A DNA stretch of 64,000 nt from Planctomycetota bacterium (lineage in GTDB: Bacteria > Planctomycetota > Planctomycetia > Pirellulales > Pirellulaceae). The first letter of the stretch is position 1, and every line of letters begins with the position of its first letter. Position numbers and translations under genes: made by a program. The notes beneath the pieces were generated by a model. The model ran no database searches. It saw only the letters and a program-made list of their open reading frames with translations, and was not told the DNA's origin. Positions 8,060 to 51,649 of this stretch are shown here, piece after piece. Where the stretch lies: the NCBI GenBank assembly GCA_029259935.1, contig JAJDEH010000038.1, forward strand, positions 1-64,000. Reading direction: 5' to 3'.

Positions 8060-11000
8060 ATGCGTCATTGGCCCCTAATGCGAGCGGCGATCGTCGTCAG
8101 TCTTGCCCTCTTGTCTGGCTGTTTGCCGACCGGCGCTGTTGGGTCGCAACTGAACGTGCTGTTCATCGCGGTGGACGATCTTCGGCCGGAGTTGGGGTGT
8201 TACGGTGCTGATCACATACACAGTCCTCACATCGACGCACTTGCGGCGAGTGGCCGGCAGTTCGAGCGGGCGTATTGCCAGCAGGCGGTTTGCAATCCGT
8301 CGCGGACCAGTCTGATGACCGGCATGCGGCCGGATTCGATCGGAGTTACCGGCAATCACTCGCATTTTCGTTCCAATCATCCCGACGTCGTCACGCTTCC
8401 TCAGCACTTCAAGAATCATGGCTATCACGCCGCCGCGATTGGCAAGATTTATCATGGCGTGTTTCCGGATGGAGCCAGCATCACCAAATGGGACACCATG
8501 GGTGACCCTGAAAGTTGGTCGGTGCCCGCGATTCGGTTCGGACCGCGGTACTACTACACCGAGGAAGGCATTGCGGCGGCGAAGAGTATTTATCACCAGG
8601 TCTACAAGCCTAAGAATCCCGGCCCGGACGATTGGACGCGGAGACTCGTTTTCGGCCCGGCAACCGAATCGCCCGATGTGCCTGACAACACACTGTACGA
8701 TGGGCAGGTCGCCGATGCCGCAGTCGAGGCCCTGCGGCAGATTGCGGGCGCGGACAAGCCGTTCTTTCTGGCAGTCGGATTCATCAAACCGCACTCGCCG
8801 TACGTCGCTCCGAAAAAATACTTCGATCGATACCAAGACGTTGCCCTGCCATCGCCCACCGAGTTCCCAATGGATGCTCCAGCCTTTGCCGGCCACGCAT
8901 CCGGGGAGTTGCGCCGCTATACTGACCAGCCAAAACGGGGCTTCATTTCAAAAGAGAATCAGCGGCGAGTTCGTCAAGCGTACTTCGCGTGTATCAGCTA
9001 CATCGATGCTCAGATTGGCCGCGTCCTAAAGGAATTGGACCGCACCGGGTTGAGCAATAACACCGTTGTCGTGCTTTACGGCGACCACGGCTATCACCTC
9101 GGCGAACAAGGGTTGTGGGGCAAGACGACTAACTTTGAACTCGATACTCGCGTGCCCTTGATTGTGCGGGCACCGAACATGAAGGCCGTTGGCCGGTCGA
9201 GCGCGTCGCTGGTTGAACTAGTCGATTTGTACCCGACGTTGGCCGAACTTGCCGGATTGCCGCTTACGAAACAACTCGAAGGCAAGAGCTTCGCCGCGAC
9301 CGTGAACGACCCGGATCACGTGACCAAGACGGTCGCGTTCAGCCAGTATCCTCGCGGCGGCGGACTGATGGGTTATTCGATGCGGACGGCAACGCATCGA
9401 CTGACGCAGTGGGTGCGTCGTCCATCAGGCGAAATTCACGCAACCGAGTTGTATGATTATGCGGAAGGGCCGGTCGAAACAAAAAATATCGCCAGCACGT
9501 CGTCAGAATTGGTCGCGAAACTCTCGCCCCGGTTGGCAACGGCTTTTGCCAGCAGCTTTGTCTCTTCATCTGGCCCTCGAAAGACGAGTAAAGAAACACC
9601 CGCACCCGCGTCGCACGGCAGTGGCGGAACCAGCTTCGAGAAAGTGAAAGCCGGCCCGTTTGATAGACTCGAAACCACGATTGGAACATGGACGCCAGTC
9701 GCTGGCAAAACCATCATTGACGACCAACACGCCAAGACGGGGAAACGCTGTTTGCAGCTTACGGGCGGCGAAAAGACGAGCATCACACTGCGGATCGCGG
9801 ATGGAGTGAAAACGACGGGTGATCTGACATTTTGGGCCGAACGTTGGACGAAACGCACGCCGTTTTCCTTTCGCATTGACAAACAGACTGCACAGGGATG
9901 GAAAGAAGTTTTTAACGGCGACAAAGAAGTACGCGTTGGGCGGGCGTTCCTTTCGCACGTCCAGGTGCATCTCGGTGACGAAGGCGTCAAGCAGTTGCGT
10001 TTTACGGTCACGAGTCCTCCGAACACCGGGATCCTGGTCGATGACATTAGGATCGCGCCCGCTCGGCCACAGAAGATCGCCGTTGTCGAGGTAGTGCCTC
10101 TCACGCTGCCGGCATTGGTCGGAAGCGACGCGAGCCCGCTGTTGAAGTTGAAAGTCGAAACGACGGGACGGCTGAATCCGATTTCATTGACCGAATTGCA
10201 GACGACACTAGAAGGCACAACCGATCGTTCCGATCTCTCGTCGCTGTCTGTCTACCGTAGCGGTGAAGCCAATAGCAGCTTTTTGGCAAGCAAACAGGTT
10301 GCGCGGCTTGATGCGAAATCCTTGAGAGATGAGCGGATAGTGTTTTCCTTCCCGGCGTCTTCTTGCCAGTTGGCCGAGGGCATCAACTATTTTTGGATAG
10401 CAGGCCGGCTCGACAACCGCGCCAACATCGACCATCGAGTTGGGGCGGCTTGCAAACAGGTCGCATTCTCTAACGGCGAAACGGCCAAACTCGATTCCGC
10501 CTGCTCCGTTCAAAGGATTGGAGTCGCCCTGCGCGATGGCGGCGATGACGGAGTCCACACGTATCGCATCCCGGGTCTGGCGACGACCAACAAAGGCACG
10601 TTGATCGGCGTCTACGATGTTCGGCGGCGTGGCGGCGGCGACCTTCCCGGCGATATCGACGTCGGTATGTCGCGATCAATGGACGGCGGGCGAACGTGGC
10701 AGCCCATGAAGGTCATCATGGACATGGGCGATGATCCTCGGTGGCGCTACGACGGCATTGGCGATCCCGCGGTGCTTGTTGATACAAACACCGGCACGAT
10801 CTGGGTGGCCGCGACATGGAGTCACGGGAATCGCTCGTGGAGGGGTTCCGGGCCCGGGCTGAATCCCGAAGAAACCGGCCAGTTGATGCTGGTCCGCAGT
10901 GACGACGACGGCGTCACCTGGTCGCAACCGATCAACATCACCAAGCAAGTCAAGCGGCCAGAATGGTGCTTCATCCTTCAGGGACCCGGTAAAGGAATTA

Positions 11001-13111
11001 CGATGCGCGACGGAACGATCGTCTTTGCCGCTCAATATCAGGACCCGCCGGAAGACAATCGTCTGCCGCATTCGACAATCATCTACTCGAATGACCACGG
11101 CAAGACATGGCAGGCCGGCACCGGCGCGTTCGACGATACAACCGAGTCGCAAGTTGTTGAAGTTGAACCCGGCGTGTTGATGCTCAACTGCCGTTACAAT
11201 CGCAAGGCAGTGCGAGTCGTGATGACCACCCGCGACATGGGCAAGTCGTGGCGGAAGCACGCAACATCCGAGCGATCGCTGATCGAACCGGGATCCTGCA
11301 TGGCAAGCTTGATCGATGTTGATCAAGAAGTTGGCAAAGACGTTGGCAAGTGGCTGTTGTTTTCCAATCCGGACAGCAATCGTGGACGGCATCATATCAC
11401 GATCAAGGCTTCGCCGGATCGCGGCCAGACTTGGCCCAAGGAGCATCGCCTGCTGCTGGACGAAGGCAACGGCCGAGGCTACTCGTGCATGTCGATGATT
11501 GATCAGAAAACCGTTGGCATCCTGTACGAAGGCAGCCAGGCACATATGACGTTCCAGCGGATTCCGTTGGCCGATCTTGTGGGTGACGGGGCCCGGTCCG
11601 GCGGACTGCCCGCCAATTCGCGCCCGGATTCAACAAAGCAGAGCCTACAACTGCCCCGCGTATTTGGCACTCACATGGTACTGCAGGCCGATGCCGAGAT
11701 TCCCGTGTGGGGCCGCGCCAAACGTGGCGCGAAAGTGACGGTGACATTCGGAGACGAAACGCAAAGTGCCTTGGCGAACGATCAGGGAGCATGGCATGTT
11801 CGTCTGAAGTCACGCGCGGCTAACGCAACTCCAGCTAGAATGCTGATCCAATCGGGTGGTGAACGAATTCAATTCTCGGACATTCTGATTGGTGAAGTTT
11901 GGATTTGCGCTGGCCAATCGAATATGGAGTGGACATTGGACCAGTCCACCAACGGTAAAGAAGAACTATCCGCTGCCGATCATCGCGACCTTCGACTGCT
12001 GCACTTGGCCGGCGGAGCGAGTGGCAGCTACACGGCGCGGCATCTCGCCCGCCTAACGCCCGAGCGGTTTTGCGAAGGAGAATGGAAGGTCGCATCCGCC
12101 GAGTCCGCTCGCGAGTTCTCCGCGGTCGGTTGGTATTTCGGTCGACACTTGCAGCGCGAACTCAAAGTCCCGGTTGGTTTGATCTGTCCCGCGGTCGGTG
12201 GTACGCCGGCGGAAGCATGGATTCCGCGCGAGGTTCTCGAAGCCGATCCGAAATTGAACAAACTGGTTGCCGGCAACTGGCTTGACAATGGCCGGCTGGG
12301 CGAATTTTGTCGCACGCGAGGACAGCAGAATCTGCTGCAAGCAATTCAGGCGGGCGAAGCGATTCCCGGTGACGACCTCGGTCCCAATCACTCGTTCAAA
12401 CCAGGCTTCATGTGGTCCGCCGGGATCGAGCCGTTGGTGCCGTCCGCGATGCGGGGCGTCATTTGGTATCAGGGTGAGTCGAACGCCGAAACGCCGGCCC
12501 GAGTTCGCCAGCATCGCTTGCTGTTTCCCTTGTTGATTAGCCAGTGGCGGAAGCAATGGCGACAAGGAGACTTTCCATTCCTTTTCGTTCAACTTCCCGC
12601 GCTGAATCGTCCCGCATGGCCTTCATTTCGCGACGGGCAACGCCAAGTGCTCAAGCAGCTCGAAAACGTCGGGATGGCCGTCACCATCGACACGGGCCAT
12701 CCCACCAACGTCCATCCGCCTCTGAAGAAGCCAATTGGTGAACGGCTGGCGAACTGGGCATTGGGAATGACTTATGGTTTGACAACACATGCGAACTACA
12801 AAGGGCCATTGATTGATGTCGCCGAACGGGAGGGAGGCTCAATGGTCGTCTCCTTCCGGCACGCCGGTGAAGGCCTCAACTCATGCGACGGCCAGCCGTT
12901 GCGACACTTTGAAGTCCGCGGCGACGACGGTGTGTTTCATCCCGCCAGCGCGAAAATAATCGGCAAAAGCACCATCGCGGTTTCAAGTCCGCAGGTCGAC
13001 AAACCGACGCATGTGCGGTATGCGTGGCTGTCGTTTCCGAATCCAGCCGTCAACCTTGTCAACGCCGCGGGTGTTCCCGCATCACCATTCACCACGGAGC
13101 GCGCGGAGTGA
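8060..13111 (+). CDS. Sulfatase-sialidase-sialate O-acetylesterase fusion
   Basis: A single uninterrupted 1683-residue frame with three enzymes. Residues 1-30 are a signal with an LLSGC lipobox (Cys21). Residues about 30-500 form an iduronate-2-sulfatase-like domain, with metal Asp39/Asp40 and formylglycine motif C78-N-P-S-R. A Ser/Pro linker and a jelly-roll-like segment (about 505-690) follow, then a sialidase N-terminal-type domain. The GH33/BNR sialidase has YRIP at 835-838, Asp boxes near 873, 947, 1010, 1057 and 1118, and a candidate catalytic Tyr1141. The C-terminal SGNH sialate O-acetylesterase (about 1195-1683) has GQSNMEW with Ser1287 and WYQGESN near 1469. Together they could desulfate, de-O-acetylate and cleave sialylated glycans at the cell surface. 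The next gene starts two bases after the stop. Domain calls are firm; the substrate is inferred. Confidence 0.9.
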   Translation: MRHWPLMRAAIVVSLALLSGCLPTGAVGSQLNVLFIAVDDLRPELGCYGADHIHSPHIDALAASGRQFERAYCQQAVCNPSRTSLMTGMRPDSIGVTGNHSHFRSNHPDVVTLPQHFKNHGYHAAAIGKIYHGVFPDGASITKWDTMGDPESWSVPAIRFGPRYYYTEEGIAAAKSIYHQVYKPKNPGPDDWTRRLVFGPATESPDVPDNTLYDGQVADAAVEALRQIAGADKPFFLAVGFIKPHSPYVAPKKYFDRYQDVALPSPTEFPMDAPAFAGHASGELRRYTDQPKRGFISKENQRRVRQAYFACISYIDAQIGRVLKELDRTGLSNNTVVVLYGDHGYHLGEQGLWGKTTNFELDTRVPLIVRAPNMKAVGRSSASLVELVDLYPTLAELAGLPLTKQLEGKSFAATVNDPDHVTKTVAFSQYPRGGGLMGYSMRTATHRLTQWVRRPSGEIHATELYDYAEGPVETKNIASTSSELVAKLSPRLATAFASSFVSSSGPRKTSKETPAPASHGSGGTSFEKVKAGPFDRLETTIGTWTPVAGKTIIDDQHAKTGKRCLQLTGGEKTSITLRIADGVKTTGDLTFWAERWTKRTPFSFRIDKQTAQGWKEVFNGDKEVRVGRAFLSHVQVHLGDEGVKQLRFTVTSPPNTGILVDDIRIAPARPQKIAVVEVVPLTLPALVGSDASPLLKLKVETTGRLNPISLTELQTTLEGTTDRSDLSSLSVYRSGEANSSFLASKQVARLDAKSLRDERIVFSFPASSCQLAEGINYFWIAGRLDNRANIDHRVGAACKQVAFSNGETAKLDSACSVQRIGVALRDGGDDGVHTYRIPGLATTNKGTLIGVYDVRRRGGGDLPGDIDVGMSRSMDGGRTWQPMKVIMDMGDDPRWRYDGIGDPAVLVDTNTGTIWVAATWSHGNRSWRGSGPGLNPEETGQLMLVRSDDDGVTWSQPINITKQVKRPEWCFILQGPGKGITMRDGTIVFAAQYQDPPEDNRLPHSTIIYSNDHGKTWQAGTGAFDDTTESQVVEVEPGVLMLNCRYNRKAVRVVMTTRDMGKSWRKHATSERSLIEPGSCMASLIDVDQEVGKDVGKWLLFSNPDSNRGRHHITIKASPDRGQTWPKEHRLLLDEGNGRGYSCMSMIDQKTVGILYEGSQAHMTFQRIPLADLVGDGARSGGLPANSRPDSTKQSLQLPRVFGTHMVLQADAEIPVWGRAKRGAKVTVTFGDETQSALANDQGAWHVRLKSRAANATPARMLIQSGGERIQFSDILIGEVWICAGQSNMEWTLDQSTNGKEELSAADHRDLRLLHLAGGASGSYTARHLARLTPERFCEGEWKVASAESAREFSAVGWYFGRHLQRELKVPVGLICPAVGGTPAEAWIPREVLEADPKLNKLVAGNWLDNGRLGEFCRTRGQQNLLQAIQAGEAIPGDDLGPNHSFKPGFMWSAGIEPLVPSAMRGVIWYQGESNAETPARVRQHRLLFPLLISQWRKQWRQGDFPFLFVQLPALNRPAWPSFRDGQRQVLKQLENVGMAVTIDTGHPTNVHPPLKKPIGERLANWALGMTYGLTTHANYKGPLIDVAEREGGSMVVSFRHAGEGLNSCDGQPLRHFEVRGDDGVFHPASAKIIGKSTIAVSSPQVDKPTHVRYAWLSFPNPAVNLVNAAGVPASPFTTERAE

Positions 13112-13113
13112 AA

Positions 13114-13872
13114 ATGAGTACGCCAGTCGAAGAGCTAAGACAACGATTTCGAGCGGATGGATACGTCGCGCTACCGGGATTCCTAGATGAGCAGGAACTG
13201 GCTGAGCTGCGGGAGAACGTGGCCCGATTCATCGACCAAGTCGCTCCGACGATGCCTCGCGAAGAAGTCTTCTACGAAAGCAAGGCGGACCGCGGCACGC
13301 TCAAACAGTTGCAGCGGATGTTTGAGCATGACGGCTACTTCCAAGATCTGATGTTCGGCGGCCGGTTCGAGCAGCTCGCGGCGACGCTGCTCGAAGATGA
13401 CGTTCGCGGCGTCAACTTGCAGTACTTCAACAAGCCGCCCAGCGTTGGCCAACCAACTCCCGCCCATCAGGACGGCTACTACTTCATGCTCGAACCAAAT
13501 GAAGCGGTCACCATGTGGCTGGCGCTGGAGGACGTGGACGAAGAGAATGGTTGCGTTCGCTACGTGCGTGGATCGCACTTGCAAGGGTTGCGCCCGCACG
13601 GCCGGACGCAGACGCTGGGATTCTCACAGGGAATACTCGATTTCGGCACGGACGTGGACAAGCAAAACGAAGTTGCCATTTCCGCTCGTCCCGGCGATTT
13701 GCTGGCTCATCACGCGCTGACAGTTCACCGGGCGGACGGAAACGGGTCGAATACCCGAAGTCGGCAGGCGCTGGGATTCGTCTACTTCTCAAAGGCTGCG
13801 CGCGAGAGCGATGAGAGAGAGCGCCGGCACGCCGCCCTGATGGAAGAACTGCGGAACACCGGGAAAGTTTAA
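13114..13872 (+). CDS. PhyH-family Fe(II)/2-oxoglutarate dioxygenase
   Basis: 252 residues. ATG 13114 follows the upstream stop by two bases and has a GGAG site, so translation is probably coupled to the sulfatase-sialidase fusion. The double-stranded beta-helix ligands are visible: His118 and Asp120 in HQDGYY, distal His205, and an Arg near 215-217 that would hold 2-oxoglutarate. The family (phytanoyl-CoA dioxygenase-like) hydroxylates diverse small molecules, so the substrate is open. No signal peptide is present, so it acts in the cytoplasm. The coupling hints that it processes something released by the surface enzyme, but this is inference. Confidence 0.88.
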   Translation: MSTPVEELRQRFRADGYVALPGFLDEQELAELRENVARFIDQVAPTMPREEVFYESKADRGTLKQLQRMFEHDGYFQDLMFGGRFEQLAATLLEDDVRGVNLQYFNKPPSVGQPTPAHQDGYYFMLEPNEAVTMWLALEDVDEENGCVRYVRGSHLQGLRPHGRTQTLGFSQGILDFGTDVDKQNEVAISARPGDLLAHHALTVHRADGNGSNTRSRQALGFVYFSKAARESDERERRHAALMEELRNTGKV

Positions 13873-14029: not shown

Positions 14030-16465
14030 CTATTCGGTCAGTGTAATCACGACTTTCTCTAATTCGCCTTGGAAAGGAAACGGTCCTTCGTACTTCCGGG
14101 AGACTTGCGTGCCCATGTCGCGGCCGACGTCGAACGTTTCGGCCAGTGAGTAAGTGCTGATGTGCATCTTGGGCATCTCGGTTTCGGCGACCATCTCGCC
14201 GTTGACGAACAGTTGGCCCGTGCCGGCGAATTCGCCACTCTTGATGAAGTTGAACTTCAACTCCGTTTCCCCCTTGGGTAGTGGCGGCGATTCCATTGTG
14301 TAGTAAACACCGTCCAAATAGTTGTAGTCGTAGTAGCATTTGCCATCCTTGATGAACATCGTGAAGCCGCCCGTCATGCCGCCGACCGCCACGATCACGC
14401 CTTCTTCGTCGCCGGTTAGATCGAGATTGGTGACGATCGAATGGGACCGGTTCTTGACCGGGACGGATGCCTTCTCCGCGATTCGCACCGCGCCCGGCGC
14501 GTAGTAGACAAACTCCTTTCGGTCACCGAACAGACGTGTCTCCTGCGCCGAGATTCGTTTGATCATGTCGTCGTACAGTGGATAGACGTTGTACTTCCAA
14601 GCCTCCTCCTCGAAGGTAGCCTTCAGTTCTTCCAACTTCTCGGGGTGTTCGGCGGCAAGGTTCGTACTCTCCGAAAAATCCTCGGCCACGTGGTACAGTT
14701 CCCATTCGTCTTTGTCGAACGGCTGCACGACGTTCAGTTCCCACGGCAGACGCTTTGCGTGTAGCGTGACAGCTTTCCAACCATCCGCCCAGATGGCCCG
14801 GTTGCCGAACATCTCGTAATATTGTCGTTGCTTTTTGTTGGGCGCGTCGGCGTCGTCGAAGCAGTAGACCATCGAATCGCCGTCAAGCGGCTGTTGTTCG
14901 ACGCCGTGATATATCCGGGGCATCGAGACGCCGGCCGTTTCCAGAATGGTCGGCGCGATGTCGCTGATGTGGTGGTACTGATCACGAATCTCGCCCTTGG
15001 CTTCGATTCCCCGCGGCCAATGGACGACCATCGCATCGTGCTGTCCGCCGCGATGCTCGCTCTGCTTGAAGTACCGGAAAGGCGTATTGCCGGCCATGGC
15101 CCAACCGGCGTGATAGTGCGGATAAGTTGTTGCGTCGCCCCAGTTGTCGTAATGCCGCATGTTGGCTTCAAAGGGCGTCTGCAACCCGTTGAGAACATAG
15201 GTTTCATTGAACGTACCGGCCAAGCCGCCTTCGCCGCTGGCACCGTTATCGGCCGTGACGAAGATCAACGTGTTGCTCAATTCGCCAATCTGCTTGAGCG
15301 TTGCGACCACTCGGCCGATCTGCGCGTCGACATGCTCCATCTGCGCGGCGAACGCTTCCATCTGCCGAGCATAGAGTTTTTTCTCGTCGTCGTTGAGTGT
15401 ATCCCAGGCCGGGATCGCGTCGATGCGGCCGGTTAGCTTGGTGTCGGCGGGAATGACGCCGAGTTTCTTTTGATTGGCAAGAATCGCTTCGCGAGCTTTA
15501 TCCCACCCTTCGTCGAACTTACCGCGATACTTTTTCAAATAATCCGCCGGAGCATGATGCGGCGAGTGCATCGAACCGGATGCCCACAGCATCATGAACG
15601 GCAGGTCGGGTTTGATCGATTTGTGCCCCGTGATCCATTGAATCGCTTTGTCGGCCAAATCTTGGTCGAGGTGGACCGACTTGCGGTACGGTTCGGGCGT
15701 ATGATCGTTCCACATCACCGGCACGAATTGATGCACGTCGGCGGCCATGAAGGTGTAGGCGTGGTCGAATCCTTCACCGCTGGGCCAGCGGTCGAACGGG
15801 CCGACCTGCGAGACCTCGTACAGCGGCGTGTGGTCCCACTTGCCGAGGGCGTAGTTTATGTAACCCGCGTTCTGCAGATAGTTGGCCACGCTCTTGGCAC
15901 TGGCCGGCATCATCGCGTTGTAGCCGGGAAATCCCATGGCGGTCAGCGCGTGGCTGCCCAGTCCGATCGAGTGCGGATTGCGGCCCGCCATCAATGTCGC
16001 TCGCGAGGGCGAGCAGAGGGCCGTCGTGTGAAAATTGTTGAATCGCAGGCCGTTCTCGGCCAGGCGATCAATGTTGGGAGTTTCAATCAGTCCGCCAAAG
16101 CATCCGAACTGGGCAAATCCAACGTCGTCCAATAAGAAAATGACAACGTTAGGAGCACCCTCGGGAGGAGTCACCGGGTCGGGCCACCACTCTTCCGAGT
16201 CTTCGTACTTCTTGGCAATCTTGCCCTTGAATTCGGTCGTCTTATTCTCGCTCATAGGCTGTGGATCGTCCCGGTCACCGGCGTTCTGGTCTTCCGCAGT
16301 GGCCTTCAGTTCGGCGACCTGCTTGGCAAGTTCACGCTTTTCCGCTTCCAATTCGGCGAGTTGGGCAGCATTGTCGGCGCACCCCGAAGCGAAAAGCAAC
16401 GAAGCTAGAACCGCACAAAGTAGAGTCGTAAACGGGAGTGTTCCACGCATTGATGGTGCCTTCAT
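14030..16465 (-). CDS. Arylsulfatase lipoprotein with coiled coil and C-terminal domain
   Basis: The start was set at ATG 16465 (811 residues); a second ATG five codons on is also possible. A hydrophobic signal ends in FASGC, a lipobox. A short Ala/Glu/Lys coiled coil (about residues 35-60) acts as a spacer from the membrane. The sulfatase domain begins at about 100 (VVIFLLDDVGFAQFG) and carries the formylglycine motif Cys151-S-P-S-R, which needs a separate maturase. The last 150 residues look like a lectin-type beta-sandwich (GGFTMFIKDGK, LFVNGEM), as in AtsA-like arylsulfatases. It probably cleaves sulfate esters on the cell surface. The gene is convergent with the dioxygenase and flanked by direct repeats. 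Confidence 0.92.
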   Translation of the reverse strand: MKAPSMRGTLPFTTLLCAVLASLLFASGCADNAAQLAELEAEKRELAKQVAELKATAEDQNAGDRDDPQPMSENKTTEFKGKIAKKYEDSEEWWPDPVTPPEGAPNVVIFLLDDVGFAQFGCFGGLIETPNIDRLAENGLRFNNFHTTALCSPSRATLMAGRNPHSIGLGSHALTAMGFPGYNAMMPASAKSVANYLQNAGYINYALGKWDHTPLYEVSQVGPFDRWPSGEGFDHAYTFMAADVHQFVPVMWNDHTPEPYRKSVHLDQDLADKAIQWITGHKSIKPDLPFMMLWASGSMHSPHHAPADYLKKYRGKFDEGWDKAREAILANQKKLGVIPADTKLTGRIDAIPAWDTLNDDEKKLYARQMEAFAAQMEHVDAQIGRVVATLKQIGELSNTLIFVTADNGASGEGGLAGTFNETYVLNGLQTPFEANMRHYDNWGDATTYPHYHAGWAMAGNTPFRYFKQSEHRGGQHDAMVVHWPRGIEAKGEIRDQYHHISDIAPTILETAGVSMPRIYHGVEQQPLDGDSMVYCFDDADAPNKKQRQYYEMFGNRAIWADGWKAVTLHAKRLPWELNVVQPFDKDEWELYHVAEDFSESTNLAAEHPEKLEELKATFEEEAWKYNVYPLYDDMIKRISAQETRLFGDRKEFVYYAPGAVRIAEKASVPVKNRSHSIVTNLDLTGDEEGVIVAVGGMTGGFTMFIKDGKCYYDYNYLDGVYYTMESPPLPKGETELKFNFIKSGEFAGTGQLFVNGEMVAETEMPKMHISTYSLAETFDVGRDMGTQVSRKYEGPFPFQGELEKVVITLTE

Positions 16466-16478
16466 TTCGTGCTTGAGT

Positions 16479-16520
16479 AGAAAAAACGTGAGAACTCTCC
16501 GGCGAAAAACCCCTGAATGC
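16479..16520 (+). repeat. Right copy of imperfect direct repeat flanking a sulfatase gene
   Basis: AGAAAAAACGTG, ten bases, then GGCGAAAAACCCCTGAATGC. It lies 14 bases upstream of the sulfatase start codon, so it falls in the leader or promoter of that gene, while its partner at 13933-13974 lies past the stop. Confidence 0.55.
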
Positions 16521-16780
16521 CGGGATTCTAGACCCAAATCGTCACCTGCCAACCGGCGCGAGCCTCACGTGCCATGTTCGACGTTTGACACCGGCTCGGT
16601 CAATCATCTCTCCGAGGTGCGACCGACTGCTCAGTCGAGGGGCTTTTCATGAAGGTTGCCAGGAAATCTTTCTTTCCGCGCAGGCTGCCTGGCAATTGCC
16701 GGTAACTAAGGGCAAACAGGAAGCGGCCCACGTCAAAGCCGCTGGATGACAACCAACTTTTTTCGTCAAGGAGATCTACC

Positions 16781-17167: not shown

Positions 17168-18046
17168 CTAAGCGGGCTGAGGCAGATTGGCAACCTTGAT
17201 GATCCGATAACCGCAATATCGGAGGGCCATTAATGAACCGACCAGCATGCAAGTTTGCAAACTCGTGGTACCGATCCAGAATATGCACATTGTGGTTTCC
17301 AGGCGTCCGACGGTGTACGCAGAGACTAGCCCCGCGATAATCGACACGGCAATCGCCAGCATGCTCCGATACAGCGGATGGCCAAACCCCAGCGTTGCCC
17401 ACAAACTCGCCAGTCCAACGCTTACCTGGCAACTTCCAATCACGGCGAGTGTCGAATACGTGCCCAAGCTGTCAATCGCGGACTCCAAATACCTGGCGGC
17501 CGCCGCGAGCGACGCGACTAAGGCAGTAAACGCGAGAAGATGGCGAATTCCGAATTGCAGACCTTCCTGAACGGCGGAATGGTCGTGATCCGGGGTTTGA
17601 ATCGCCATGCCGCTCCAGCGCCCGATCCAGCAGGTGAGCGCTACGATCGCGGTCGCAAGAACCACCAGAAAGCCGATTGGCAGCAGTCGTTCCAGATTAG
17701 CCTCACTCACACCCCACCACAATTGAATCGACAACAAGCAAGTTGTCACGGTCGAAATAATCGCGCGAGTCAACCAGTGCGACGAACCGAAACCAAGCCA
17801 AGCACCAACAAGGCTCGTTTGGCAAAACAGTAGGGCGACAAAGGGAATCGTGCGAAGCTCATGTTCGCTGGTCGACAGGCACGCCAACACCATGCCCACC
17901 GCCAGGTGCGCGAGGATCAGTCCGCCAACTATTGACGTTGTGTGCTCGTTACGTCGAAAAGCCTTAAGTGTCGATGTGTTCGCGAGCGTGGATTTCATGG
18001 ATTGAAGTTTCGACAATAACGAAGAGCCGCGTGCTAGGGCTCTCAC
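17168..18046 (-). CDS. Multi-pass membrane protein, unknown function
   Basis: 292 residues from GTG 18046, whose GTGA overlaps the stop of the upstream TPR gene by four bases, a sign of translational coupling; ATG 17998 is an alternative. I count about seven to eight hydrophobic segments. The central FGIRHLLAFTALVASLAA stretch is a motif I associate with many planctomycete membrane proteins of unknown role. There are no catalytic motifs. Its coupling to the secreted TPR protein suggests the two work together at the envelope, which is inference. Confidence 0.72.
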   Translation of the reverse strand: MRALARGSSLLSKLQSMKSTLANTSTLKAFRRNEHTTSIVGGLILAHLAVGMVLACLSTSEHELRTIPFVALLFCQTSLVGAWLGFGSSHWLTRAIISTVTTCLLSIQLWWGVSEANLERLLPIGFLVVLATAIVALTCWIGRWSGMAIQTPDHDHSAVQEGLQFGIRHLLAFTALVASLAAAARYLESAIDSLGTYSTLAVIGSCQVSVGLASLWATLGFGHPLYRSMLAIAVSIIAGLVSAYTVGRLETTMCIFWIGTTSLQTCMLVGSLMALRYCGYRIIKVANLPQPA

Positions 18047-20985
18047 TCAGACCCCTTGTTTCTCGCGTCTCTCAACTCCTGGCGGGCCATTGCGTTGGTT
18101 ACGTAGTTTTCCGTGTCTGGCGTGGTTGACGATGCCTTAAAGTAGACGGTTGCGGCATCCGGTTGGCCGGAAAATGCCAGAAATTTTCCCACGAAGTAGT
18201 TTAGATTGACGCGATCTTCGCTGTTGGCGTCCTCCAGCAACTTGGCAAAGGTCGTGGTATTGAATGTCGTCGCCTCGTCGTTCACCGCCGCCAGCATTAG
18301 GCCGGCGAGTTGTTGGCTTTTCGCTTGAGTTGCGTCCGTGTTATTCGAAATCGTTTTCAGAATCTCGTCTCGCTGTTGTTTTCGACCCAGCTTGTGTGCC
18401 AACACGGCGGCAAACAAGCCGTTGTAGCATCGGCTGCGCGCGTCGCTCACGTTGTCGGTGGCTTGGGCGAAAATGCTTAGCGCCCGTTCGTATTCTTCAA
18501 GCAACATCAGTTGACAGCCAGCCGCGAACCTTTGATTCCACGGCAAGGATTTCGCTTCTTGCTCGATCTTACTGACTCGCAGCGCGATGAACTGAGGGTC
18601 GTTGCGGTCGTGATTCCGGAGCCAATCGATGTATGCGTCCGCCGAGGAAGGGTAACGATCGGCCATGCGGCTATACCACAACTGGGCCCGATCGAGATCG
18701 CCTTTTCCCTGGTTGCATTGAACGGCGCATCGCATTGCCCACTGGGCGTAGGACTCGGCGGCCGCCTCGGCATAGGGAAGAGCGCGGTCCCACTCCTTTT
18801 TTCCCATGAAGTGTTCGGCAATGTCGACGCGAATTCTGCCGTGTTCGAGGCCAATGGGCGGCAGCTTCAAATATCGTTCGAGTGTCGCGAGCCAGTTATC
18901 AATATCTCCTTCGAATTTGTGCCAATCGGCGAGGCGACTTACGGCGGAATAGTCCGGAGATAAGCGAACGTACTCCTCCAGAAATTTCTTTTGCACACCC
19001 TGCATCGGCGGAGATTCGGCCAGCGCGCGAAGCACGGCTGGATGGTGGCGATAGGGCTTCGTCAGTTCCTCTACCTCCTCTTTCGACAGTTTGCCGTCGG
19101 ACTTGATCTTGAATGCGATACCGACGGGAGAATGCTTGCTGATCTCCAGAATTTGTTCAGCGACTTTCAGCCGGTCCGCCTTTTCTCTCGTCGCGTGCAT
19201 CCGCAACGTCAAGGCGCGATGCGTCTGATCGATGGGTGGCTTCTCCGATCGGCGAATGTTGTTGAACTGTCGACGGTCGATATCCTCGACGGAAGCCAGC
19301 AATTTCAGTTGGGCTTGCGGCGGTAAACTGCTTCGATGCAGATTGGACAACGTGGAATTCATTAGCTCCGCCAACTGTGCGTCGTCGTAGCCCGTCATAT
19401 TTACAAATTTTTGATAGGGATGAGATTCGATCAAAGGAGCGACTTCGCGAAGATAATTGTCGACGGGGACCGACCACATATGGTGCATGAAGTGGGCCCG
19501 CGTCCAGACATGGCAGAAATTCGTTTCCGCGGTCAACTTCGCCAGCACTTGCCAAGAAAACTCGTTTCCGTCTTTGGTTCCCTGGCTGTGTAGTTCCGCG
19601 ACAAGGTTCGCGGCGTTGACTACTTCGTCTTCGCCCACGTCGAGCAATTCTTTGGCCGATTCGGGTAGTCCCGGCAGACGTGGCATCTGTTGTCGCAGCA
19701 TCGCCTCGTGCATCGCCGGTCCGTACTCGGTAATACGATGGAGCATGGACACACCTGACACGTCGTACATGCCGTCGACAACACGAAAGCAAAATGGGTT
19801 CTTGTTGAGCGCTTGGAATGCACTTTCGATGGTCCGCCGAGGCGTTTCTCTGTTTTCCAGAGTCAAGAAATGGAATACGGCAGCCAAGGGCCCGTATTGT
19901 TCGTCGTCGAATTCCTGGGCGAGGTGCTCAAAATCAAACCGGCACAGAAGGTCCAGCAGTTTGACCCAGGCGGCCGTCCGCCGGTTGCCGTCGTCTGCCG
20001 CTTCGCCCAAAGCTTCCGCGGCGGCCAAGTCGAGCAGAGCATGATTATGCAGCCCCGTCAGAGCCAAGGCGTAGGCCCGATGCTGGAGCGACGCCGGATT
20101 CTTGGGCAAGCGGACGACCAGGCGTTGGGCGTACAGCAACGAGCACGCCTTGAACGCGCGGTGCATATCATTCCAATGATGTTCCGTTAGCATGCCCAGA
20201 TTGGCATAAGCCCGGACAAGATTGGCGATCGCGGTGTCGGATTCGCCTTCATGTTGAACCTGCTCATGAATACTTCGCACTAAGTAGAACTGCATGATGT
20301 GGTTGGCCCGCGCAAGCAATCGCTCCGAGGTGGCCATGACTTCGTCGGCGGTCTTTTTCTTACGCGGTGATACACCGGCCTTGCTCAACGCCTCGCGGAT
20401 CCCGTTGCGCGACCAATGCTCGGCCTGCTGTAAAACGGCCAAGTAGCGATCGCTGGACCTGCTAGGAAATTCGACCGACGATTCCCACAGCGGGGCGTTC
20501 TCTTCGCCGTCGGCGATCACACTCAGCTTGACCTTGATATCCGATCCCGGAATCTGCTCGGTCACCAATTCAAATTCGCGGCTCGCGGTGCCAACAGGCG
20601 ATCTCTCTCCCAATACCTCGTCGCGCGTCGTGAAACCGAACTCGTCGCGAGTCGCGATCATCAACGACTGACGAACGATTTCTTCACACAGTAGGTCATA
20701 TCTGACCGGCGCGTTCTGGTGAGCGGCTTTCCAGGCCGAGCAGTGTGCCACAGGTCGGCCCTCGTCCGGACTGAAAAGACGCAGCTTGCAAGTTCGCTGC
20801 GAAAGGTTTTTCGGACTTTCGTTGTGTTGCCCTGGCAAAGGGCCTGCATGGAAAAGAAAGACAATGAACACAAAAGACGCCGTGATTCGAACCGGCGATG
20901 TGGCGAACGCATTTCGCAAGAGTGGCCTAGGAATTGGACGGATAGACCGCGACTCGATCAAGCGGAAAAGAGACATTTTGCGCAT
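18043..20985 (-). CDS. Large secreted TPR-like protein
   Basis: The frame is open from 21162, but I prefer ATG 20985 (980 codons) because it follows GGGGAG closely and is soon followed by a signal-type segment (ASFVFIVFLFHAGPLPGQ). The body is nearly all alpha-helical. TPR-like units are clearest in the C-terminal third (for example KKEWDRALPYAEAAAESYAQ, and LDRAQLWYSRMADRYPSSADAY). It has no enzymatic motif, so a scaffold role in the periplasm-like compartment is likely. The downstream membrane gene overlaps its stop. The exact start is uncertain because several ATGs are close. Confidence 0.72.
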   Translation of the reverse strand: MRKMSLFRLIESRSIRPIPRPLLRNAFATSPVRITASFVFIVFLFHAGPLPGQHNESPKNLSQRTCKLRLFSPDEGRPVAHCSAWKAAHQNAPVRYDLLCEEIVRQSLMIATRDEFGFTTRDEVLGERSPVGTASREFELVTEQIPGSDIKVKLSVIADGEENAPLWESSVEFPSRSSDRYLAVLQQAEHWSRNGIREALSKAGVSPRKKKTADEVMATSERLLARANHIMQFYLVRSIHEQVQHEGESDTAIANLVRAYANLGMLTEHHWNDMHRAFKACSLLYAQRLVVRLPKNPASLQHRAYALALTGLHNHALLDLAAAEALGEAADDGNRRTAAWVKLLDLLCRFDFEHLAQEFDDEQYGPLAAVFHFLTLENRETPRRTIESAFQALNKNPFCFRVVDGMYDVSGVSMLHRITEYGPAMHEAMLRQQMPRLPGLPESAKELLDVGEDEVVNAANLVAELHSQGTKDGNEFSWQVLAKLTAETNFCHVWTRAHFMHHMWSVPVDNYLREVAPLIESHPYQKFVNMTGYDDAQLAELMNSTLSNLHRSSLPPQAQLKLLASVEDIDRRQFNNIRRSEKPPIDQTHRALTLRMHATREKADRLKVAEQILEISKHSPVGIAFKIKSDGKLSKEEVEELTKPYRHHPAVLRALAESPPMQGVQKKFLEEYVRLSPDYSAVSRLADWHKFEGDIDNWLATLERYLKLPPIGLEHGRIRVDIAEHFMGKKEWDRALPYAEAAAESYAQWAMRCAVQCNQGKGDLDRAQLWYSRMADRYPSSADAYIDWLRNHDRNDPQFIALRVSKIEQEAKSLPWNQRFAAGCQLMLLEEYERALSIFAQATDNVSDARSRCYNGLFAAVLAHKLGRKQQRDEILKTISNNTDATQAKSQQLAGLMLAAVNDEATTFNTTTFAKLLEDANSEDRVNLNYFVGKFLAFSGQPDAATVYFKASSTTPDTENYVTNAMARQELRDARNKGSE

Positions 20986-21190
20986 CGACTCCCCAAATAG
21001 ATCGGATTGGAACAAGTCGCAATTATCACCGATCCCGAGAAGTGGGGCAATCAACACGCGGCGAAGAGACGCCGGTTGCAGGACTTTTGAATTGGGCCAC
21101 GGTCGCGAGACGAGTGGCTGCGGGCGCCCGAAACAAATTCCGGTCGCGATGGTAGAAAACACCGCTTGCGCGGCGGCGTTGGTCTGTGGA

Positions 21191-22093
21191 CTATTTTTGT
21201 TTTTTCGCGACTGCTTCGTCGTGTGACATGCGTTGGGCGACGTTGCCGCTTCTGGTGCTGAAACGCAGGTCGCCTGTTTGCCGTGTCGCCGCGCGATGGC
21301 TCACAACGCCGGCTAGCTCAGAGAATCTCGCCTGCACCGCCGGGTCGATGTTTTGCAAACGACTGGCCAGATGTTGCACGCCCGGCCCGTTGGATTCCGA
21401 CAACTTGGAGACGCGCGAGACAAATCGTGCCGACTGTTGGAAGTTGTAGTCCGCCGTCCTGTTGACCAGCGGTTTCAAGGTGCGGGCCAGCAAATCGAGT
21501 CCGACGTTGTTGATCTGCAGGAACATGTCGAGCCGATTGGTGACATACGTTTGGCCACTTGGATCGCGGGAGTATCCCGACTTGAGGACTAGGACACAGC
21601 GACCGGACATTTTTCGCGCAAACATTCCCCCGTCATAGGTGCCTTCCGCGTAAATTACGTGCGTGTCGTCCGTGCCGTAAACCAGTTCGACGTTACAGTC
21701 CGTTCCCATGCCGTCGGTACCGCTGAGAGAATACGGACCGGTCCGCCGAGTTGAACATTTGGTGATCCCCATCACCTGCCAGATATCGACAATCACTTCG
21801 GGGTAGCGGACCAGGAACAGAAACATATCCGGGTCGCAATCCATGATTTCGAGCGGCATCCGGCGGTAGATCGACGCCTTGTTGACCACCGACGATATCT
21901 TCTGTTTCGACTCGGCATTCATTTCGGAGAATGGAATCGAACGGACGGCCTGTTCGCGCGCGGCGCGGCTCGATGTCGCCTGTGTCGGTGGCCCGCCGAA
22001 CGCAATGTCAGTGAACACGACCAGCAGCGATAAGGCTGCCAGCCATTTGCATCCAGGCCCCTGCCAGAGCCGCCTATGAGTTGCCTCGCCCAT
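21191..22093 (-). CDS. Secreted protein of unknown function
   Basis: 300 residues with a signal peptide (hydrophobic core WLAALSLLVVFTDIAFG). The mature part has a conserved-looking central region containing DCDPDMFLFLVRYPEVIVDIWQ, two Cys positions (ITKCS and TDCNV) and a VYGTDD turn, followed by a helical C-terminus. I think similar proteins occur in other planctomycetes, but I cannot name a family. A GGGGG-type purine run precedes the start. It lies upstream of the TPR gene on the same strand, 205 bases away. Confidence 0.65.
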   Translation of the reverse strand: MGEATHRRLWQGPGCKWLAALSLLVVFTDIAFGGPPTQATSSRAAREQAVRSIPFSEMNAESKQKISSVVNKASIYRRMPLEIMDCDPDMFLFLVRYPEVIVDIWQVMGITKCSTRRTGPYSLSGTDGMGTDCNVELVYGTDDTHVIYAEGTYDGGMFARKMSGRCVLVLKSGYSRDPSGQTYVTNRLDMFLQINNVGLDLLARTLKPLVNRTADYNFQQSARFVSRVSKLSESNGPGVQHLASRLQNIDPAVQARFSELAGVVSHRAATRQTGDLRFSTRSGNVAQRMSHDEAVAKKQK

Positions 22094-26236: not shown

Positions 26237-27346
26237 ATGAAGTTTGGCATCGGTATTCTGGGGGCCACGGGTTTCATCGGAACTCCCTATCGCGAGGAAA
26301 TTCGCCAATCTCCACAACAGGCAAGCATCGTGGCTTTGTGTGCGCGTCGGCGCGATCGTCTCGACGTGGCGGCTGAATTGGATGGCGCGAAGGTCGCCAC
26401 GCAACGATGGGAGGATGTCGTCAATCACCAGGATGTGAACTTGGTGGTGGTGGCAACCCCCGATTCACTGCACCATCAGGCGGTCATGGCTTGCGCGGCC
26501 GCGGGCAAGCATGTGTTCTGTGAAAAGCCGATCGGGGTGAACGCCCGTGAAGCTGAGGAAATGTGGAACGCATTTCGGGACGCTCGACTGGGGCACTATG
26601 TTCCCTTCTGGACCCGATATGTTCCCGTCATGCAGCGGGCGCGTGAGATCGTCCGGGCTGGTCGATTGGGTGAAATCAAGGCCGCCATTTATCGCTGGCA
26701 CAATCCTCGGCCCGTTGCCATGCCATTTACGTGGCGTGATGACGCCCAACTCTCCGCCGCCGGCAGCATCGCGGATGTGGGCTCGCACGCTTACGACGCG
26801 GTGCGCTGGATCTTGGGTGAGGAAGCTTGTCGCGTGCTGGCCCATGCCGAAGTGTTGACGCGTGACAAGCCGGATCTGGGCGAGATCGACCTGACCGAAG
26901 CACTCGAGTGGGGGCAAGAGCACGCTCGCTCCGATTCGTCGGCGACAAGACAGGCCACCGCGGTCGACTACGCGAATATCATCTGGCAATTCCCGTCCGG
27001 CTGTGTCGGCTCGCTGATTCTTTCGCATTCGCCCGTGTTACGAAAAGGTTTTTCACCCGAAGTGGAACTCCATGGCACCGAGGCGTCCCTGTCCATCGAT
27101 CGCATCGATCACCGACTGCTAATGTCGGGGCAGGGTGATGAGATCATGGTCGAAGCGGAACTTCCATTCGATGGTTTCGGCAATCGATTCGGGAAGTACG
27201 TGTTTCCCGCAATTCAAAAGAGAATGGTGGGCGAAGCCTGCGACGACCCGGGACTGGAAGACGGCTGGCACAACCAGAGGTTCACCGATGCGGCGGTAAG
27301 CTCGGCCCAGCGCGGACAATGGGTTGAAATAGAACCTCTGGCTTAG
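26237..27346 (+). CDS. Gfo/Idh/MocA-family oxidoreductase
   Basis: 369 residues with an N-terminal Rossmann fold (GILGATGFIG) and the family CEKPIG motif at about residues 97-102, whose Lys is catalytic. The C-terminal domain has the GSIADVGSHAYD signature that positions the catalytic His. Family members use NAD(P)H to oxidise or reduce sugars and derivatives such as inositols or N-acetyl sugars. The substrate is not deducible. It may be co-transcribed with apgM and with the nucleotidyltransferase-like gene 150 bases downstream. Confidence 0.9.
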   Translation: MKFGIGILGATGFIGTPYREEIRQSPQQASIVALCARRRDRLDVAAELDGAKVATQRWEDVVNHQDVNLVVVATPDSLHHQAVMACAAAGKHVFCEKPIGVNAREAEEMWNAFRDARLGHYVPFWTRYVPVMQRAREIVRAGRLGEIKAAIYRWHNPRPVAMPFTWRDDAQLSAAGSIADVGSHAYDAVRWILGEEACRVLAHAEVLTRDKPDLGEIDLTEALEWGQEHARSDSSATRQATAVDYANIIWQFPSGCVGSLILSHSPVLRKGFSPEVELHGTEASLSIDRIDHRLLMSGQGDEIMVEAELPFDGFGNRFGKYVFPAIQKRMVGEACDDPGLEDGWHNQRFTDAAVSSAQRGQWVEIEPLA

Positions 27347-27496
27347 CTGCAGCTTGCGACGGAATGCACGTTTTTCAGCTAGCCCGCGTTCGTATTGACC
27401 CGGAAATCCAACTGCTGCTAGACTCCAAATCATCGCAGTCAGAAACTTCCGCGATCACGCCAAGCACCAAGCTTTTCCCACCAATGAGGCACGCGG

Positions 27497-28240
27497 ATGG
27501 TGAAAACCCTCGGGATAGTTGAGATCTGTCCGCCCCAATCTCCTCTCTCTCCCACGGAGATTCCGGCGGAACTCGCCTTACGACGGTTTGGCGATTCGAC
27601 GTTGCTTGAATGGGTCGCCCGCCGAGCCACCGATTGCCAGTGGATTGATCGGGTGGTGGTCTCCTGTGGTAACGATCAGGACAAGAAGGCCATCCAAGAG
27701 ATTGTCCCGGCGGACGTGGCCGTGTTTGCCGCCGGACAGCCCGACCCGCTGGCTTGTTTCGCGGCCACCGTCAGGCAGTTCGCCGCTGAAGCCGCGGTTC
27801 GAATTGACGTCAATAGTCCATTTATCGATCCCACGCTAATTGACCGTCTTGTTGCATCGGCCCAGTCGCAAGCGGGAAATGACTACGCCAGCTTTTGTTT
27901 CAGCAACGGACGCCCCGTGGTGCAAGCCAGATTTGGAATGTTCGCCGAGTGGTGTTCGGCGTCAGCCATCACGCAAGCGGACCAGGCAGCCCGTGAACCC
28001 AGCGATCGGCGGATCTCGACCCGCTACTTGTACACGCATCCGGAGATGTTTCAAACGCGGTTGCTGCCGGTGCCTGAAAAACTAACGCGAGAGGCGCTGC
28101 GCGCGGGAGGAAGTGTTTCCGAAGATTGGGACGACGCACAAGCGATCTACGAAGCCCTGGGTCCCGAACGACTCGAATGGAATTGTATCGCGGAAATTTT
28201 GGATCAACAAACGGGCGTGAGGAAACCGATTTCCAACTAA
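27497..28240 (+). CDS. SpsF/CMP-sugar-synthetase-like nucleotidyltransferase
   Basis: 247 residues with a GT-A-type nucleotide-binding fold pattern: TLGIVEI strand, the IPAELALRRFGDSTLLEWVARRA helix region, VVVSCGND, and RIDVNSPFIDPTLIDRLV, which matches the acidic-motif and helix region of SpsF-like cytidylyltransferases. The usual RMxSxRLPGK nucleotide-grip motif is replaced by a Pro-rich stretch, so activity may be altered or lost. It sits between a sugar-type oxidoreductase and a HAD protein, which would suit a surface-sugar activation step. The family call is moderate and the function is inferred. Confidence 0.6.
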   Translation: MVKTLGIVEICPPQSPLSPTEIPAELALRRFGDSTLLEWVARRATDCQWIDRVVVSCGNDQDKKAIQEIVPADVAVFAAGQPDPLACFAATVRQFAAEAAVRIDVNSPFIDPTLIDRLVASAQSQAGNDYASFCFSNGRPVVQARFGMFAEWCSASAITQADQAAREPSDRRISTRYLYTHPEMFQTRLLPVPEKLTREALRAGGSVSEDWDDAQAIYEALGPERLEWNCIAEILDQQTGVRKPISN

Positions 28241-42249: not shown

Positions 42250-43224
42250 ATGCCGGTAACGGTGTTCCCCATGTCTCTATCCATGAATGAGAATCCCGTG
42301 CAAATCCTGCCACGGCTTGGTCACGCCAATCTCGGATTGGGCGTCGGACTGCGACATGTGCACTTCCCGCACATCTTGAAAAACAACCCCGATGTCGACT
42401 GGTTCGAGATCATCTCTGAAAACTTCATGGACTCGCAAGGCCGGCCGCGGTATGTGCTGGACCAAATCGCCGAGCGGTATGCGATCGTGATGCACGGTGT
42501 TTCACTGTCGATCGGCAGCACCGATCCGCTGAATCGAGAATACCTGGCCAAGCTAAAGAGACTGGGCGACCAGGTTCAGGCTCGTTGGGTCTCCGACCAT
42601 CTTTGCTGGACCGGCGTCGCCAGCCGCAATTCCCATGATCTGCTGCCCATCCCGCTTAACGAACAATCGCTAAAACATGTCGTGCAACGCATTCGGACCG
42701 TTCAAGAAATCTTGGAGCGGCCCCTCGTGTTGGAAAATCCCAGCAGCTATGTCACGTTTGCCGCCTCGACGATGAGCGAATGGGAGTTCATTTCCAGAAT
42801 GGCCGAGGACGCGGATTGCGGGCTGTTGTTGGACGTCAACAACGTTTATGTCTCCAGCGTGAATCACGACTTTGACCCGGTCGAGTACATACAATCCGTG
42901 CCCCACCACCGCGTGGTCCAGTTCCATTTGGCGGGACACACGAACATGGGCACGCATTGCATTGACACGCATGACGGCCAAGTGATTGATCCCGTGTGGC
43001 AGTTGTACGCGTTGGCCCATCAGTTGACCGGCGGAGTTTCGACGCTGCTGGAATGGGACGCCAACATTCCGTCGTTCGAAGAGGTCCACGCGGAGGTACT
43101 GAAAGCGCGCACGTATATCAATGGAGAAGCCGCTCCTACCGCCGGCACGGCCAAAGCGGCATCGGAGCCGGCGGGCGGTGCGGTGCCGCATCCTCTGCAT
43201 CTTGTCTCGGCCGAAGTCGAATGA
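42250..43224 (+). CDS. bufB: MNIO-family (DUF692) peptide-modifying oxidase
   Basis: 324 residues; ATG 42271 and 42283 are alternative starts. The TIM-barrel ligand set of multinuclear non-haem iron oxidases is visible: His82 (MHGVSLS), Asp116/His117 (VSDHLCW), Glu162 (LENPSSY), Asp195/Asn197 (LLDVNNVY), His226 and His230 (FHLAGH), Asp239/His241 (DTH) and Glu268 (LLEWD). Relatives modify Cys of a partner peptide (methanobactin MbnB, bufferin BufB). The last 45 residues are an Ala-rich tail. It is translated just after the Cys-rich lipoprotein and overlaps the next gene by ATGA. Confidence 0.92.
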
Positions 43225-46951: not shown

Positions 46952-47099
46952 GATTGCTTGAGTTGCGCTGCCACCCGCCAGAAGAATTTCGCTTTCCCAC
47001 GTCTTGAAGCGGCACTCCGACAAGTTGATAATTTGTCACCTTAACTTGGTGCATTTCCGGCTCTCATCTTGAGCCCAACTTTCATGGAAGGTGTGCACA

Positions 47100-48554: not shown

Positions 48555-48616
48555 CCGGTCTCAAACGGAAATCGCAAAACACTTTTGCCACTTTTCATGG
48601 AAACACTGAAGGTCCG

Positions 48617-50455: not shown

Positions 50456-50512
50456 GGAACGCGGGAAGTCACCAAACCAACTCTCAACTACATCACCACC
50501 CTTGGTGCGAAT

Positions 50513-51640: not shown

Positions 51641-51649
51641 TGCCAGCGA

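Follow-up and report, generated by a model that had tools for sequence, protein, structure and literature searches.

A sulfatase, a sialidase and a sialate O-acetylesterase joined in one planctomycete protein: family, gene neighbours and putative action on modified sialoglycans

The first 64,000 nucleotides of contig JAJDEH010000038.1, from a Planctomycetota bacterium of the Pirellulaceae (hereafter the window, always meaning this whole stretch), carry on the plus strand a gene (8060..13111) whose product joins a signal peptide, a sulfatase, a domain resembling carbohydrate-binding modules (CBMs) and MAM domains, a sialidase and a sialate O-acetylesterase. Its open reading frame (ORF) runs from ATG to TGA over 1683 residues with no internal stop. 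The family to which this fusion belongs, the genes that accompany its relatives and the glycans on which it could act are considered here.

The signal peptide region covers residues 1 to about 29 (8060..8146). It is followed by an S1 sulfatase domain, SULF (residues 32-492, 8153..9535, PF00884 and PF16347), in which the Pfam family Sulfatase, i.e., the type I formylglycine (FGly) sulfatases of SulfAtlas S1, matches residues 32-399 with 171 bits for a cut-off of 25, and SGSH_C matches residues 348-492 above its curated cut-off. The FGly motif C78-N-P-S-R82 (8291-8305) fits the C-x-[PA]-S-R pattern. After the segment LINK (residues 506-672, 9575..10075) and a BNR_assoc_N domain (PF14873, residues 679-805, 10094..10474, above its curated cut-off) comes SIAL, a GH33-type Asp-box propeller (residues 827-1174, 10538..11581) matched by BNR_2 at 860-1145 (96.5 bits, cut-off 31.4) and, also above its curated cut-off, by BNR_3 at 838-1111. 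The C-terminal module SASA (residues 1190-1683, 11627..13108) is a sialate O-acetylesterase-like SGNH module; the Pfam family SASA matches it in two stretches, the best being 1463-1552 (57 bits, cut-off 24.8). The only other Pfam matches, to DUF229, Tli3, Sortilin and Big_6, are weak and all under cut-off. A preliminary description, made from the sequence, had claimed one continuous frame joining three enzymes, with the FGly motif, YRIP, five Asp boxes and the SGNH motifs GQSN and WYQGESN. The open frame, the Pfam modules and the homologs, which are alike, bear out the continuous frame, and the motifs are present as claimed (YRIP at residue 835, GQSN at 1285, WYQGESN at 1469), except that four Asp boxes are strict (873, 947, 1010 and 1118) while the fifth (TRDMGKSW, at 1057) fits only a looser pattern.

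The residues presumed to be catalytic are almost invariant among the homologs whose modules align well (100 for SULF, 119 for SIAL and 111 for SASA). In SULF, C78, R82, K129, H245, H343 and K355 are identical in 100/100 homologs, and D39 and D40 in 99 (one gap); the complete set of positions that we take to be the FGly, metal and active-site residues (C78, D39, D40, K129, H245, D342, H343 and K355) is, together with R82, identical in 98 to 100 of 100. In the same way, R836, D853, E1029 and R1045 of SIAL are identical in all 119 homologs, and R1110 and Y1141 in 118 (one gap); R836, R1045 and R1110 would be the Arg triad, D853 presumably the acid/base and Y1141 and E1029 the Tyr/Glu pair. For SASA, S1287 is found in 109/111 homologs (two gaps), D1544 in 111/111 and H1552 in 110/111 (one gap), S1287 and H1552 being presumably the catalytic Ser and His. 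Ten relatives in which the modules are permuted or split retain the catalytic residues at every covered position. The earlier statement that each domain keeps its key residues thus extends to the aligned homologs of all three modules, and the family is real, conserved and apparently catalytically intact.

The N-terminus holds an LSGC box (residues 18-21, read directly from the sequence), which had led to the suggestion of a surface lipoprotein. Among 103 homologs that start with M and begin with the sulfatase, a lipobox within residues 9-45 occurs in 5, the window protein included, and the remaining N-termini inspected by eye mostly have the appearance of plain Sec signal peptides. The box itself stands, but this count speaks against a lipoprotein nature as a family trait, and anchoring of the window protein in this way is doubtful.

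LINK has no Pfam match at E<=1, and its best PDB sequence match has an E value of 0.47. The structure prediction proposed earlier for the segment 505-690 gave for LINK a beta-sandwich (predicted local distance difference test, pLDDT, 91.4) whose top Foldseek matches include CBM22, CBM16 and CBM4; among the families of the VIA list, MAM domains score equally high. Furthermore, LINK also precedes sialidases in proteins without SULF. The model and this recurrence rule out an unstructured linker; as modelled, LINK folds into a CBM/MAM-like domain, which belongs with the sialidase and probably positions the glycan.

A protein search revealed 526 homologs at E<=1e-3 among 7990 candidates scored; the statements below concern the best 120, which include the window's own protein, and the best 80 of 240 loci. 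The queries used to assign modules were those of the window, a second sulfatase (SULF2), GDSL modules and further pieces taken from P0002, P0007, P0010, P0011 and P0067. The order SULF-LINK-SIAL-SASA, invariably the same, is found in 102 of the best 120 homologs. SULF2, whose closest structures are an S1_8A sulfatase, SGSH and N-acetylglucosamine-6-sulfatase, is present in 86 of the 120 and in 72 of the 102 with the window-type order, whereas 27 of the 120, among them that of the window, consist of SULF-LINK-SIAL-SASA and nothing more. Because most relatives with the same order add SULF2, the window gene is a short form. Proteins as long as 2757 residues also occur in the family, extended by additional SASA, GDSL or BNR modules. 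Carriers belong to the Planctomycetota and Verrucomicrobiota (with one Lentisphaerae record), and the locus closest to that of the window comes from a Fuerstiella sp. (L001; identity 83% for SULF, 81% for SIAL and 74% for SASA). Within the phylum, SULF was found at E<=1e-150 in at least 1 of 392 genomes (the window's own), a lower bound as at most four candidates were scored per genome. The preliminary description knew of no described enzyme with this order. Of the refuting case named there, a common and described architecture, the first half applies: it is widespread in sequence databases, but in the open-licence papers searched, as far as their text was accessible, no description of it was found. 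As far as this literature search reaches, it would thus be new as a described entity, although built of known families.

The same modules also occur in other arrangements. Eight loci (L033, L034 and L039-L044) show the order SULF-SASA-LINK-SIAL, with a SULF2 gene or module nearby in seven of them. In L036 and L037 the set is split into two genes, LINK-SIAL-SULF2 and SULF-SASA. L031 encodes SULF-SULF2 and L032 SULF alone; L091 and L092, seen with longer flanks, encode LINK-SIAL-SASA-SULF2 and LINK-SIAL-SASA, both without SULF. Loci that end inside the gene (e.g., L015, L020, L021 and L023) were excluded from the counts of losses. L152 (genome G131) and L153 (G391) carry LINK-SIAL-SASA-SULF2 and LINK-SIAL-SASA with no first sulfatase, each adjoining a NanA gene and a gene for NanM joined to a sodium/solute symporter (SSS). 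In the complete genome CP036272 (G008), a stop interrupts the SULF-LINK gene (L025, 7638-14266); this genome also has LINK-SIAL-SASAn-SASA as a separate gene (L130) and, adjoining a gene for a PhyH-type dioxygenase, a SULF2 (911 bits) that stands alone (L121).

Phylogenetic analyses suggest that modules were joined more than once or swapped. The SULF tree unites the window, L081 (L004 in a second copy) and 43 of the loci L001-L044 in a single group of 45 rows that includes no others (support 100/97); L010 was too short and left out. These 44 loci were chosen as the most window-like, so that this grouping is partly expected; the informative part of the tree is that the other gene order is nested within it, as a group of eight rows (100/99). 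The SIAL tree gathers the window-type modules in one group of 29 rows (100/99) and places the LINK-SIAL proteins without SULF between them and the modules of the other order. Approximately unbiased (AU) tests reject a single ancestry: holding together the SIAL modules of both SULF-bearing orders and of the split set worsens the log-likelihood (lnL) by 212 (p-AU 1.7e-116), and holding together all fused sialidases, including those of L082, L091 and L092, which lack SULF, worsens it by 314. Therefore, one sulfatase lineage must have been joined to a sialidase at least twice or have exchanged it, unless several unfused sialidases came from fission. The SASA tree, where 12 stand-alone SASA from the same genomes were included and L064 was left out for its long branch, separates 11 of these 12 (100/100) from a set made up of the fused SASA, the in-locus SASA of L019, L082 and L131 (a stand-alone SASA with a long branch).

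The start codon of the next gene lies 2 nt past the stop of the fusion. It encodes a PhyH-type Fe(II)/2-oxoglutarate dioxygenase of 252 aa (13114..13872, plus strand, PF05721), with no signal peptide evident by eye. An alignment of 23 sequences shows no variation at its residues H118, D120, H205 and R217, and its model (pLDDT 88.6) is closest to the structures of SnoN, SnoK, MysH, PHYHD1 and EvdO2. PhyH orthologues (42-61% identity, next paralogues at most 34%) occur in nine of ten fusion genomes, which were picked because they have the fusion, in G009 as the split form and in G008 as a broken one, versus 21 of 391 other genomes of the phylum at E<=1e-40 (Fisher p 2e-10); the latter count leaves unsupported the idea that PhyH is a general planctomycete neighbour. 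Other genomes with LINK have PhyH in 4 of 14 cases (p 0.004). At the level of loci, PhyH is seen in 14 of 44 from the fusion clade versus 1 of 32 controls, and this lone control (L073) shares its accession prefix with the fusion locus L021. A role as phosphonate hydroxylase was also considered, for which there are weak NCBIfam matches to methylphosphonate hydroxylase (E 4e-10, 40/500 bits) and a match to a phosphonate-type GntR.

In the relatives, the fusion has as neighbours, besides PhyH, genes for a NanA-type lyase, NanM fused to an SSS, an N-acylglucosamine 2-epimerase (AGE)-type epimerase and GntR regulators, identified by Pfam and NCBIfam on representatives. At least one of NanA, NanM and AGE is found in 18 of 44 fusion-clade loci versus 0 of 32 sulfatase-only control loci (p 8e-6); restriction to loci of at least 12 kb gives 17 of 32 versus 0 of 21. 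The sialidase-only loci L045, L049, L061 and L062 were kept out of the controls, L049 having NanA, NanM and AGE and no sulfatase. The clearest instance is L019, which carries PhyH, SASA, NanM-SSS, AGE, NanA and the fusion in a tight run on one strand, with gaps of at most 39 nt. Among the LINK loci without SULF, analysed with longer flanks and leaving out the fusion of G001, 4 of 14 (L144, L152, L153 and L155) adjoin NanA together with NanM-SSS or AGE. In the ten fusion genomes, the identity of the best NanA-like protein is 46-67% for six of them, 40% for a seventh and 29-36% for the other three. In G001 and G002 (57-67%), it lies at a distance from the fusion, in NanA/NanM-SSS clusters, and in G002 the transporter is followed by a SULF-related sulfatase (415 bits) (L124, L126). 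This nan context provides independent backing for the sialoglycan role attributed earlier to the three enzymes. NanM epimerase and SSS form one protein of about 880-950 aa in L014, L017, L018, L019, L022, L024, L028, L032 and L037 (identified by Pfam and NCBIfam for L019 and L032 and by phmmer for the others).

Taken together, these data suggest, with a probability that we put at about 78%, that the fusion is a secreted multi-enzyme protein that would clear sulfated, O-acetylated sialoglycans of their modified sialic-acid caps. In this scheme, the FGly sulfatase would strip sulfate and the SGNH esterase O-acetyl groups, either of which could block the sialidase; the GH33-type sialidase would then free the sialic acid, the CBM/MAM-like domain probably positioning the glycan. 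The freed sialic acid could be imported and split by the Nan pathway, i.e., the NanM-SSS epimerase/transporter, the NanA lyase and the AGE epimerase, a pathway that the organism of the window presumably possesses as well. The PhyH encoded beside the fusion would be cytoplasmic and probably acts on a modified sugar intermediate. This set of enzymes fits what is known of modified sialic acids. In echinoderms, N-acetylneuraminic acid (Neu5Ac) and N-glycolylneuraminic acid (Neu5Gc) occur in O-acetylated and O-sulfated forms; starfish and sea cucumbers have a methyl group at O-8, others a sulfate (PMC6994554). In addition, 8-O-sulfated Neu5Ac (Neu5Ac8S) has been reported throughout mouse and human tissues (PMC9304399). 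Furthermore, planctomycete strains with sialidases and Nan genes have already been described (PMC11929135).

Several observations weigh against this proposal. The fusion is not obligatory, since L019 combines a SULF-LINK-SIAL-SULF2 protein with SASA as its own gene and L027 is without SIAL. The locus statistics count related loci separately, and 8 of the 44 fusion-clade loci are near-copies of a Mariniblastus type. The NanA and AGE neighbours score under the NCBIfam equivalog cut-offs (at most 195/281 bits for NanA, 376/600 for AGE), and the NanA-like matches are weak in G003 (29%), G005 (36%) and G006 (33%, although that gene adjoins the fusion). In the 64-kb window, no homolog of NanA, NanM, AGE or GntR was found above threshold, PhyH being the sole adjacent gene of this set. 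PhyH is missing from G005, and where the 21 other genomes have PhyH (L097-L116 and L128), its neighbourhood shows no NanA, NanM or AGE that reaches 50 bits; these surroundings hold an SSS in three cases, a GntR in one and SULF2-like pieces in two. PhyH is therefore tied to the fusion genomes and not to nan genes everywhere.

Comparison with known systems reveals relatives of each part. Solved GH33 sialidases (7qy9, which matches at 459 bits and is with its kin the closest, 4fj6, 4bbw and others), several of them presumably of gut origin, align with SIAL along some 405-410 residues that take in the propeller and a portion of the N-terminal domain, but they are unfused to a sulfatase or esterase, and their chains of 519-553 aa are too short for LINK also. 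In the same way, the solved esterases closest to SASA, FI8 (9h4u), 9ega and 7kmm (242-266 bits), have the same module and motifs but are single enzymes. The Emticicia locus L049 (sialidase-AGE-NanM-NanA) encodes the same downstream pathway in separate proteins, SULF and PhyH not being found there. The fusion deposited as PDB 6hr5 presumably differs from ours by another sulfatase subfamily and another glycosidase, and by having neither sialidase, esterase nor Nan context. It comes from Formosa agariphila ("Alpha-L-rhamnosidase/sulfatase (GH78)"; P36_S1_25, PMC9096561) and its name likewise pairs a sulfatase with an exo-glycosidase, for a sulfated marine polysaccharide, ulvan. In gut Bacteroides, removal of O-acetyl by EstA likewise lets a sialidase free Neu5Ac, with separate proteins (PMC10017367).

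The solved chains closest to SULF are 6hhm (292 bits) and then human iduronate-2-sulfatase (5fql/6ioz, 240 bits), which we assume to act on iduronate-2-sulfate. The earlier label of iduronate-sulfatase-like can be kept at the level of family only, 6hhm being the ulvan sulfatase P18_S1_7, listed as S1_7 (PMC9096561). Both P18_S1_7 and the human enzyme have in alignments the same active-site block as SULF. P18_S1_7 is known to act on ulvan, whereas SULF forms a clade of its own that contains solely fusion-type sulfatases among the rows tested. The nan context of the relatives would point away from iduronate-2-sulfate as the substrate of SULF, the likeness to 5fql and 6ioz being one of sequence.

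The sulfate would sit either on the sialic acid or on a neighbouring sugar. A bolder version of the proposal, which we regard as possible but tentative, is that the SULF clade comprises bacterial sialate O-sulfatases and PhyH removes a tailoring group, so that the cluster would decode echinoderm-type sialic acids. SULF, removing for example the 8-O-sulfate of Neu5Ac or Neu5Gc, would then be fused to a sialidase fed by its product, and PhyH could be, for example, an oxidative demethylase of 8-O-methyl sialic acid, the targets being 8-O-sulfated, 8-O-methylated and O-acetylated; that PhyH acts in sialic-acid demethylation is a guess that agrees with the echinoderm literature cited above. According to a 2023 review, no microbial sulfatase for sulfated sialic acid was known (PMC10017367), and the open-licence literature searched, to the extent that its text was accessible, yielded no description of a microbial sialate sulfatase or of PhyH in sialic-acid use. 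The family thus offers a concrete and testable candidate for a bacterial sialate sulfatase, already joined to a sialidase and an esterase, with a linked oxygenase in addition. If true, this would account for the use of capped sialoglycans by planctomycetes and verrucomicrobia, and would provide a tool enzyme for detecting or removing sulfated sialic acids.

That SULF is a sialate sulfatase is no more likely than that the sulfate sits on the adjoining sugar. According to this alternative, to which we give slightly less than even odds, the sulfatases would target the sugar beneath or beside the sialic acid, e.g., 3-O-sulfo-galactose (3S-Gal) or 6-O-sulfo-GlcNAc (6S-GlcNAc), and so make the glycan accessible to the sialidase as well as to enzymes whose genes lie elsewhere. 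Characterised gut mucin sulfatases act on 3S-Gal and 6S-GlcNAc (PMC10017367), SULF2 resembles S1_8/SGSH and N-acetylglucosamine-6-sulfatase structures, and SULF has an ulvan sulfatase as its closest relative of solved structure. However, a Pfam analysis of 20 of 56 unlabelled neighbours, from 10 loci, revealed no glycosidase family except two BNR-repeat proteins (one other neighbour has a GDSL lipase domain and one is a CotH protein with a chitobiase-C-terminal domain). Furthermore, the stand-alone SULF of L032 lies between PhyH and a NanM-SSS transporter, and no sialidase was found in this 12.5-kb locus.

The target of the fusion could also be another nonulosonic acid (Kdn, Kdo, legionaminic acid or an algal or bacterial analogue) instead of Neu5Ac or Neu5Gc. 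Marine glycans contain other ulosonic acids, and the specificity of GH33 enzymes is unreadable from sequence alone. Most invertebrates are devoid of sialic acids (PMC6994554). The AGE and NanM-type neighbours nevertheless fit N-acylated sialic acids, and SIAL matches solved sialidases strongly, which makes this alternative rather unlikely. Much less probable still is that the fusion is a bookkeeping accident whose modules need not cooperate: the ten fusion genomes contain 16-54 module matches each, so that chance joins are possible, but the order is retained in 102 of the best 120 homologs, all modules retain their catalytic residues, and the set recurs both in a second order with sialidases of separate ancestry and as adjacent genes. 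Finally, an artefact of assembly, a chimera or a frameshift, the last named by the preliminary description as a finding in raw reads that would refute it, is practically excluded: the exact sequence comes from a single contig (P0001), but many other assemblies carry the same architecture, with full-length identity reaching 77%.

Beyond PhyH, the window encodes on the minus strand a sulfatase of 840 aa (14033-16552), with about 130 residues preceding its sulfatase domain, which shares 22-26% identity with the sulfatases that related loci encode (alignments of at least 300 residues). A SULF2 hidden downstream of the fusion was also considered and rejected, no SULF2-like module being found above threshold in the window. 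Three consecutive ORFs on the minus strand (17171-22093; 292, 1039 and 300 aa) have no Pfam match at E 0.001. On the plus strand, a GFO/IDH/MocA oxidoreductase is followed by a CTP_transf_3 cytidylyltransferase (26237-28240), presumably NeuA/KdsB-like and possibly a nonulosonic-acid activation gene, and a clear MbnB/TglH/ChrH-type enzyme for modification of ribosomally synthesized and post-translationally modified peptides (RiPPs) lies at 42250-43224 (366 bits). Away from the window, MoxR-type AAA ATPase and DUF58 genes are seen near the split-set operon of L036 (20290-22304). At 47091-53980 of the window, also on the plus strand, SWIM (47091), HEAT (48617) and DUF5682 (51650, 506 bits) proteins are clustered with one further ORF between them, a group that we take to be reminiscent of MoxR-vWA ternary conflict systems.

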